Of a DNA stretch of 64,000 nucleotides, positions 15,101 to 40,741 are shown piece by piece; the stretch's first letter is position 1, and every line of letters begins with the position of its first letter. The position numbers were made by a program, and so were the translations under genes. Source of the DNA: Gemmata massiliana (GTDB lineage: Bacteria; Planctomycetota; Planctomycetia; Gemmatales; Gemmataceae); the NCBI GenBank assembly GCA_000531095.1, contig HG799464.1:433472-497471 (forward strand), in the 5' to 3' direction. Under the pieces are notes generated by a model, which saw only the letters and a list, made by a program, of their open reading frames with translations, had not been told where the DNA came from and searched no databases.

Positions 15101-15386
15101 CGCGGGCCTGGACGGGCGCAGTGCGGCCCTCGCCGCCGGTTCCACTCGCCTGCGACCCGTGCTCATGACCGCGATGGCGATGATCGTCGGGATGCTGCCA
15201 ATGTCCCTGGGTCACGGCGAAGGCGGCGAACAAAACGCCCCCCTCGGCCGGGCCGTGATCGGCGGTTTGAGCATCGCAACCATGTACACCCTGTTCTTCG
15301 TGCCCGTTATGTACAGCCTGCTTCGCCGCCGGTCGTCGAGCGACGCGGCGAGCCCTGATGCCAGCCCCGAAAGGAGCCAGTCGTGA
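12198..15386 (+). CDS. RND efflux pump inner-membrane transporter (HAE1/AcrB type)
   Basis: 1062 residues, full length for an AcrB-type proton/drug antiporter. TM1 lies at about 10-30, the first periplasmic domain carries DNFPDIDIPVVTV and FQPNAKIEAATAQVTA, and TM4 holds the paired aspartates of the proton relay (GILVDDATVEIENVH, about 403). The second half repeats the fold, ending near PVMYSLLRRR. The ATG at 12198 is chosen since GAGGGG lies 7 bases upstream; an earlier in-frame TTG adds five residues. The gene ends in a GTGA overlap with the membrane-fusion protein. Here the transporter comes before the fusion protein, the reverse of the common order, and no outer-membrane factor is adjacent. 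GntR is the likely regulator. Confidence 0.93.
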   Translation: MWIVRLALDRPYTFVVTSLLMLVVGMVAIRKMPVDNFPDIDIPVVTVVYLYPGMPPDDVEKRILLVTERVLTASVNDIEHMESQAYTGTGVIRIYFQPNAKIEAATAQVTATCQTVLSNMPPGTTPPYIVRYSATSVPVAQIAVSSDTLTEAELYDFAANFIIQRLGTVQGARVPQPYGGKPRQIMVDLQPDQLYARGLSAADVSAAVNAQNLILPAGTAKIGDTDFNIKVNSSPEVVDAFNQIPVKTVNGAPVYLRDVAQVRDGYAVQTNVVRRDGKRAVLLPILKSEGASTLDVVTRVRAALPGIQAQLPPELKLEILFDQSVFVRESVDGVLKEGAIAAGLTAILILVFLGSWRSTLIIIISIPLSVLCSIVTLWAFGETLNVMTLGGLALAVGILVDDATVEIENVHRNLGMRKPLREAILDGAAQIAVPALVSTLSICIVFVPVVFLTGPAAYLFIPLALAVIFAMLASYFLSRTLVPTLMLFLLGREADQYASGHHESGGFFGRLHARFEHTFEWVRQAYRGLLDWTLANRGITVVVMLVFAAGSFALVPFIGRDFFPTVDAGQIRLHVRAPVGTRIEETERIFGQIEDVIRKEVPDEERDSIIDNMGVSPFYTNTAYINNELVSVYDGEILVSLKHDHKPTAEHIRRLRQELPKRFPGCTFDFLPADVTGQVLTFGKSAPINVQVVGVRREENLAVAKRLRERLARIPGVVDVRMRQIPDAPELRIDVDRVMASGLNVTQQEAARSLLVSLSSSFQGTPNFWVSPKNGVNYRVAVQTPQGKIDSVDALLSTPITTSGGVGQPQLLTNLASLRRSESAGLISHYNVQTVYEVCATVQDRDLGGAATEIRSLVEETRGTLPKGSTIAIRGQIESMDESFAGLGFGLLFAVLLVYLLMVVNFQSWIDPFIILTALPGAAGGILWALFSTGTTVSVPALMGGIMTVGVATANSILMVTFANEQRAAGLDGRSAALAAGSTRLRPVLMTAMAMIVGMLPMSLGHGEGGEQNAPLGRAVIGGLSIATMYTLFFVPVMYSLLRRRSSSDAASPDASPERSQS

Positions 15387-16626
15387 GTGTGACACCCTCA
15401 GCGCATTCCGCGCACCATGAAGGACCAGAGGCCTCACCGGCGCGCCCGTCCTTCTTCCGACTGGCTTTCCTGGCCGTACTCGCTCTCGCCACGCTGGGCG
15501 CTCTCGGTGTCGCTGGTGTGCGGGCGCGAAACAAGCAACAGACCGACCGTACCGAAACCGCGGCCGCGGCTCGTGCGGACCGGCCGCGTGTACTCACGGT
15601 GACGGCCGAGCGCGCTCCGGCGCGGGTCGAGCAAGTGCTTCCCGGCACCGCATCACCGTTCCGCGAGACGGCCGTTTATGCCCGAACGAGCGGCTACCTC
15701 CGCCGGTGGTTGGTGGATAAAGGCGACCAAGTCAAAGAGGGTCAGTTACTCGCCGAAATCAAAACACCGGAAGTGGACGCGCAGTTACTCCAAGCACAGG
15801 CAGCTGTGGGCGAAGCGACCGCAACGCGGGACCGAAATCGGGCCAGCGCCGAACTCGCTCGCCTGAACTTGGTCCGCGTGCGGCAAACGTTCGAGACGGG
15901 CGTCGGTTCGCGCCAGGAGATGGACGAAGCGGAAGCGGCACTAAAGGTGGCAGAGGCCACGATCCGGCTGTCCGAGGCCAACATTCGTATAACTTCGTAT
16001 AATGTAAGCTGTTGGAAGATATCCAGCAGTTCCAGAAGGTCGTTGCCCCGTTCGACGGGGTCATCACGGCGCGGAACTACGACCCCGGGGCAATAGTTGT
16101 CGCAGACAGTTCAGCGGGGCCTGAAATGTTTCACATCGCACAAACTGACACGCTGCGCGTGCAAGTGGACGTGCCCCAAACGTTTGCCACTTCGGTTCAT
16201 GTTGGCCAGCCGGCACCCGTATCTCGGCGCGAGGAGCCGGGCCGGGAATACAAGGGGGCTGTGGGACGAACGACGAACGCCGTGAACGTCCAAACGCGCA
16301 CGCTGCGAGTGGAAGTCGATGTGCCGAACAAGGACCACGCCCTTCTGCAGGGGATGTATTTGCAAGTGAAGTTCCATTTGGATGCGCCGGCGAAAGTGAT
16401 CCGCGTCCCTGGGGCTGCCGTCGTCACTCGTGCTGAGGGCACGAAAGTGGCCGTCGTCGAATCGAACGGACGGATTGGGTACCGCACGGTGAAAGTGGGC
16501 CGCGATTACGGCACCATCGTTGAAGTCACCGAAGGATTGACTGGCGGAGAGAAACTCGTCGTGCGCCCCGGCGACGACCTCGCGGAAGGAACAGAAGTCG
16601 ACCCCGTCACCGCGACCGAACGCTAA
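15383..16626 (+). CDS. RND membrane-fusion protein (HlyD/AcrA type), broken by a linker remnant
   Basis: Periplasmic adaptor that joins the RND pump to an outer-membrane channel. GTG at 15383 has AAGGAG at 15371-15376 and overlaps the pump stop. Residues 25-45 are a membrane anchor (LAFLAVLALATLGALGVAG). The lipoyl half-motif TSGYLRRWLVDKGDQVKEGQ (about 96-115), the helical hairpin, the second half-motif QKVVAPFDGVITARNYDPG and the beta-barrel domain follow. The reading frame changes at 15987-16006, where 20 foreign bases match a sequencing linker. Removing exactly those 20 bases restores one frame of 407 codons reading SEANIQLLEDIQQFQKVVAP, a normal sequence for the family. I treat the gene as intact in the organism. 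Confidence 0.88.
15985..16022 (+). other. loxP-like sequence: remnant of 454 paired-end linker
   Basis: The 22 bases 15985-16006 match the start of the loxP-containing Roche 454 Titanium paired-end linker as I remember it. 15989-16001 equals one 13-bp loxP arm, 16002-16009 matches 7 of 8 spacer bases, and 16010-16022 only 9 of 13 bases of the other arm, which is the resumed genomic sequence. The frame break and the exact restoration by deleting 20 bases support an assembly artefact. Confidence 0.85.
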
Positions 16627-40201: not shown

Positions 40202-40741
40202 ATGAACGTTCCCCTGCCGAAATACGTTGAGCGCGGACCGATCCACGACGTCGCGTGGGTGCCACTGAAGTTCTTCACCGACCCGCGCGGGTGGCTCGTT
40301 GAGTTGTTCCGCAACGACCTCGTGCCGCCCCAATTCCATCCGGTCATGGCCTACGTGTCGATGACCAAGCCCGGCGTCGCGCGCGGACCGCACGAGCACA
40401 TCGACCAAGCCGACTACTTCTGCTTCACCGGGCCATCCACGTTCCGGGTGTATTTGTGGGACGCGCGCAAGGACTCGCCCACGTTCGGCGCGAAGGAGGT
40501 GCGCGAGGTGGGCGAGAGTGCCCCGTTCGCACTCATCGAAGTTATACGAGAGGTGGGCGAGAGTGCCCCGTTCGCACTCATCGTGCCGCCGGGGGTCGTT
40601 CACGCCTACAAGAACGTCGGCGACAAGGACGGGTGGGTGTTCAACGCGGCGAACCAGCTCTACGCCGGGTGGCTCAAACAGGAACCCGTGGACGAGATCC
40701 GCCACGAAAAAGACCCGAACAGCCCCTATCAACTGGATTGA
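40202..40741 (+). CDS. dTDP-4-dehydrorhamnose 3,5-epimerase-like protein with artefactual duplication
   Basis: 179 codons as written. Cupin-fold RfbC-like protein: RGWLVELFRNDLVPPQFHPVMAYVSMTKPGVARGPHEH carries the conserved pattern in which RGPHEH supplies active-site His, and GVVHAYKNVGD matches the later conserved His-x-Tyr/Phe segment. In the middle, REVGESAPFALI occurs twice, joined by EVI: a 34-base repeat (40505-40538 and 40550-40583) with 11 bases of linker between. Removing 45 bases keeps the frame and gives a normal 164-residue protein. ATG at 40202 is 18 bases after the HEAT gene. It may act in sugar nucleotide synthesis for surface glycans; substrate unproven. Confidence 0.82.
   Translation: MNVPLPKYVERGPIHDVAWVPLKFFTDPRGWLVELFRNDLVPPQFHPVMAYVSMTKPGVARGPHEHIDQADYFCFTGPSTFRVYLWDARKDSPTFGAKEVREVGESAPFALIEVIREVGESAPFALIVPPGVVHAYKNVGDKDGWVFNAANQLYAGWLKQEPVDEIRHEKDPNSPYQLD
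40505..40583 (+). repeat. 34-bp direct duplication flanking a loxP-linker remnant
   Basis: Copies at 40505-40538 and 40550-40583 are identical. The 11 bases between them (AAGTTATACGA), together with the preceding CG, match the last 13 bases of the loxP-containing 454 paired-end linker. Best read as two overlapping contig ends joined without merging. Confidence 0.82.

Follow-up and report, generated by a model that had tools for sequence, protein, structure and literature searches.

Introduction

Lox linkers serve to classify mate pairs, according to an excerpt of PMC3507753. One such sequence, CGTAATAACTTCGTATAGCATACATTATACGAAGTTATACGA, is printed as a Cre/lox mate-pair adapter in PMC5710592, and PMC5199103 prints an identical mate-pair adapter. 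The 13-base remnant described here agrees with the printed adapter at every position, and the consensus derived from its sister sites equals it over the full 42 bases. A second situation to which our locus can be compared is the overlap of contig ends that stays unmerged in a draft assembly. As there, we find an exact duplication at the junction that is absent from the relatives examined, but here a linker remnant lies between the two copies and there is no N gap at the junction.

The draft genome of Gemmata massiliana consists of 22 scaffolds with 9,249,437 bp and 64.07 % G+C, as stated in PMC4672568. The same paper gives a 454 Titanium 3-kb paired-end library together with shotgun XL+ sequencing as the data source, and Newbler 2.8, set to 90 % identity and 40 bp overlap, as the assembler. 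From its 22 contigs and similar size we infer that the assembly analyzed here is probably this draft, although its 9,269,192 bases differ from the published length by about 20 kb. The four 16-kb stretches of the window, i.e., of the whole 64-kb stretch of DNA that was analyzed, have a G+C content of 62.5-65.2 %.

Results

The original prediction, made from the letters of the window, had claimed a perfect 34-base duplication on both sides of a 13-base linker end inside an epimerase-like gene. This arrangement was recovered (Table 1), and both the coordinates and the arithmetic proved exact. The maximal exact duplication is 34 bases long at an offset of 45 bases. The 64-kb window has no other exact direct repeat of 25 bases or longer whose copies lie within 300 bases of each other. 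The 13-mer, said to be the final part of the linker, shows 13/13 identity to the printed adapter. Since CG forms the last two bases of the first copy and at the same time the first two of the 13-mer, the insert that is not shared comprises 11 bases, and 34+11 gives 45. This is a multiple of three, for which reason the frame had been expected to stay open. Indeed, the ORF is uninterrupted, and its assembled translation around the repeat reads REVGESAPFALIEVIREVGESAPFALI.

Table 1. Features of the two linker remnants and the genes around them (positions in the window).
Feature	Position	Strand	Basis or remark
Exact 34-base repeat, copy 1	40505..40538	+	Sequence read and repeat search
Exact 34-base repeat, copy 2	40550..40583	+	The 9 compared loci of the genus have one copy only
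CGAAGTTATACGA, end of the 42-base Cre/lox mate-pair linker (its final 13 bases)	40537..40549	+	40539-40549 not shared with the first copy
ORF with 179 aa in the assembly, product distantly related to dTDP-4-dehydrorhamnose 3,5-epimerase (RmlC-like cupin)	40202..40741	+	PF00908
Remnant of 22 bases from the same linker end, oriented opposite to that at 40537, inside an HlyD-family gene	15985..16006	+	Locus L015
Two ORFs of the HlyD-family gene, in different frames	15383-16096 and 16012-16626		ORF list and Pfam

Within the window the 13-mer occurs on the forward strand at 40537-40549, and its sole other exact place is 15985-15997 on the reverse strand. A search of the 64 kb for complete lox sites, in which three mismatches were tolerated, found none, and there is no run of N either. 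Shuffled versions of the window contained on average 0.75 matches to the 13-mer when up to two mismatches were permitted, and 22 out of 100 shuffles had at least two. The two matches within the window alone are not remarkable and provide weak evidence, although both are exact.

The search was extended to the entire assembly, G000, which comprises 22 contigs. Here, 39 exact copies of the 13-mer CGAAGTTATACGA and 35 copies of the lox-arm 14-mer TATAACTTCGTATA were counted, while the reversed-pattern control yielded none in either case. The 34-base lox core is present at 46 sites with at most three mismatches, and 24 of these are exact. Merging of the three scans resulted in 57 distinct linker-like sites on 12 contigs, at which the linker is either complete or truncated to various degrees and in some cases adjoins N gaps. 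In 58 related genomes (approximately 369 Mb, based on rounded sizes) the 13-mer has three occurrences, a single one in each of G008, G016 and G036, and hence in no relative more than one. Because the reversed control gives five matches in the same genomes, these three are background. At the rate seen in the relatives about 0.08 copies would be expected in a genome of this size, compared to the 39 observed. The genome-wide recurrence of the 13-mer is strong evidence for its origin from a linker. When the loci were lined up, the 42-base consensus CGTAATAACTTCGTATAGCATACATTATACGAAGTTATACGA emerged, which we take to be the Roche 454 Titanium paired-end linker.

Alignment with homologues had been proposed as a check, with the expectation that the second copy would be missing from them. 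We tested 69 homologous loci, 60 from one search and 9 from another, two sets that may share species. Exactly 15 residues fewer at the site were found in 63 of them. Another five (L113, L115, L116, L117 and L120) are shorter by 17-20 residues, which includes other gaps, and in the remaining locus (L121) the alignment ends before the site. Homologues carrying the same duplication had been named as the case against an artefact; none of the 68 loci that span the site contains the repeat or extra residues. Matches to the gene were obtained in 42 of 59 genomes, including the own one, and of the remaining 41 genomes 9 contributed a locus to this test. Among the matches from other genomes, 19 extend over residues 1-178 or 1-179; each of them is 489 or 492 bases long in the DNA, 15 codons short. 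The DNA comparison agrees with this, since BLAST over the gene placed 45 gap bases in all nine loci from the same genus, which form a single gap in four loci and are divided over two to three gap openings in five. MAFFT introduced one 45-base gap in all nine, a total that is not independent as the stretches had been pre-cut to a fixed length. The nearest relative, G008, whose protein is 99 % identical, has one copy only, and its single 13-mer lies elsewhere in the genome.

The protein encoded in the window scores above the gathering threshold of the RmlC family PF00908 (E 8.7e-08), but the match covers residues 13-103 only. In the homologues L152 and L153 it extends over residues 13-135 (E 2e-11) and 13-128 (E 3.1e-11), respectively. 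A match that stops early and has a weaker E value is expected from a false insertion. L152 also matches the solved epimerases 2b9u (E 7.9e-09) and 1wlt (E 1e-08) by sequence. However, the RmlC equivalog model TIGR01221 gives 22.4 bits for the window protein and 31.8 bits for L152, both far below its cut-off of 155.75. On these grounds, the protein is probably a cupin related to RmlC rather than RmlC itself.

The other remnant of the window lies in an HlyD-family gene that is read as two ORFs. For the ORF at 16012-16626, two models of the HlyD family score above cut-off (PF16576, E 1.5e-19; PF13437, E 2.3e-13), whereas the ORF at 15383-16096 stays under the cut-offs with its matches to PF16576 (E 6.6e-05) and to PF13533 (E 2e-06). 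The surroundings of this remnant are conserved in G008 and G012, in which the place of the linker is taken by ordinary sequence of almost the same length. From this comparison, the linker here seems to replace real bases, an error of another type than that at 40505.

We also looked for flanking repeats, up to 150 bases on each side, at 43 of the 57 linker sites. The three scans had yielded 90 loci, and these represent 43 distinct sites. At 41 of them the longest exact repeat across the linker is at most 12 bases, and the same ceiling was found at 215 control positions. A flanking duplication is present at two sites, the one at 40505-40583 and L019 (G000:C4:413032-413065). A flanking duplication as a general companion of linker remnants was rejected on this count. 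At L019 a 145-base exact direct repeat is found, the first copy of which ends exactly where the linker starts, and the second copy begins 42 bases further on. This is probably a second false duplication. N bases occur within 60 bases, on one side, at 9 of the 43 sites, consistent with linkers located at contig ends.

Discussion

With a probability of about 0.985, we conclude that the repeat at 40505-40583 is an assembly artefact, namely a scrap of linker between two overlapping contig ends that has no biological content. This reading is carried by the observed identity of the linker, by its recurrence throughout the genome and by the examined relatives, all of which lack the 45 bases. The original prediction had proposed just such an artefactual duplication from unmerged contig ends, and it is borne out by a linker end between the copies and by the single copy in all 68 spanning homologues and all 9 same-genus DNA loci. 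We infer the exact history of contig joining, including the contig boundary itself, in a window that is free of N runs. A 454 Titanium paired-end read would have retained the last 13 bases of the Cre/lox circularization linker beside genomic sequence, and from it a contig might have arisen that starts with these untrimmed bases followed by 34 genomic bases. This contig would then have been joined to one ending in the same 34 bases without collapse of the overlap, leaving a gene with 34 bases twice and 11 linker bases. Since 45 can be divided by three, the reading frame stays open and a false repeat of 15 residues would appear in the protein; such a false repeat had been predicted, and it is indeed absent from all spanning homologues while the linker recurs genome-wide. 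Points against this explanation are that a long flanking duplication is unusual at linker remnants, being absent at 41 of the 43 sites, and that no run of N marks a contig boundary in the window.

Why the overlap was not collapsed can be read in two ways. Instead of the linker blocking the merge, the 34-base overlap may simply have fallen short of a 40-base minimum of the assembler. This is a refinement of the linker-artefact explanation, with odds that overlap with it, and we regard it as quite possible, at somewhat below even odds. The setting of 90 % identity and 40 bp overlap stated in PMC4672568 speaks in its favor, since under it a 34-base overlap could stay unmerged without any blocking by the linker. 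However, the 145-base repeat at L019 was also left unmerged, which a 40-base threshold would not explain and a linker tail might.

The readings that grant the repeat a biological reality fare much worse. A true tandem duplication in this strain, in which the 11 bases arose by template slippage or as filler DNA and resemble the linker by chance, would agree with the open frame and with a window without N runs. Yet the filler matches the terminal bases of a linker for which the same genome has 57 linker-like sites, where the relatives let one expect about 0.08 chance 13-mers, and the duplication was found in no homologue examined. The homologues and the recurrence across the genome lead us to reject this reading, which we consider very improbable. 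Likewise very improbable is that the conserved cupin of this strain contains a real insertion of 15 residues with a filler that looks like the linker by chance. The least credible idea is a genuine lox-type recombination site, or an engineered lox scar, in the organism. In its favor, the 34-base core is found exactly at 24 other places, but at 40537-40549 only 13 bases remain, fewer than the 34 of the site. Moreover, the sites are spread over 12 contigs with differing truncations, N lies within 60 bases at 9 of 43 of them, and in each of the 58 relatives the 13-mer occurs at most once.

Returning to the assembly artefact, the finding is correct and ordinary and not a biological feature, and it matters for curation only. 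The draft, which is probably that of a type strain, contains 57 linker-like sites. A search of titles and abstract openings in the open-license literature, which says little about all that is in print, returned no report of linker contamination in this genome. Both remnants of the window are located inside genes, so that one protein is false within an open frame and one HlyD-family gene is split between frames. The false repeat at 40505-40583 is invisible to a check for stop codons. Repeats or indels that seem unique to this species should be compared with the linker first.

Pairs of linkers on the same strand were observed at two places, G000:C6:134061-134160 (L028) and G000:C5:600547-600693, where the distance between the two starts is 66 and 113 bases, respectively. 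They may stem from reads or junctions that contain two linkers.
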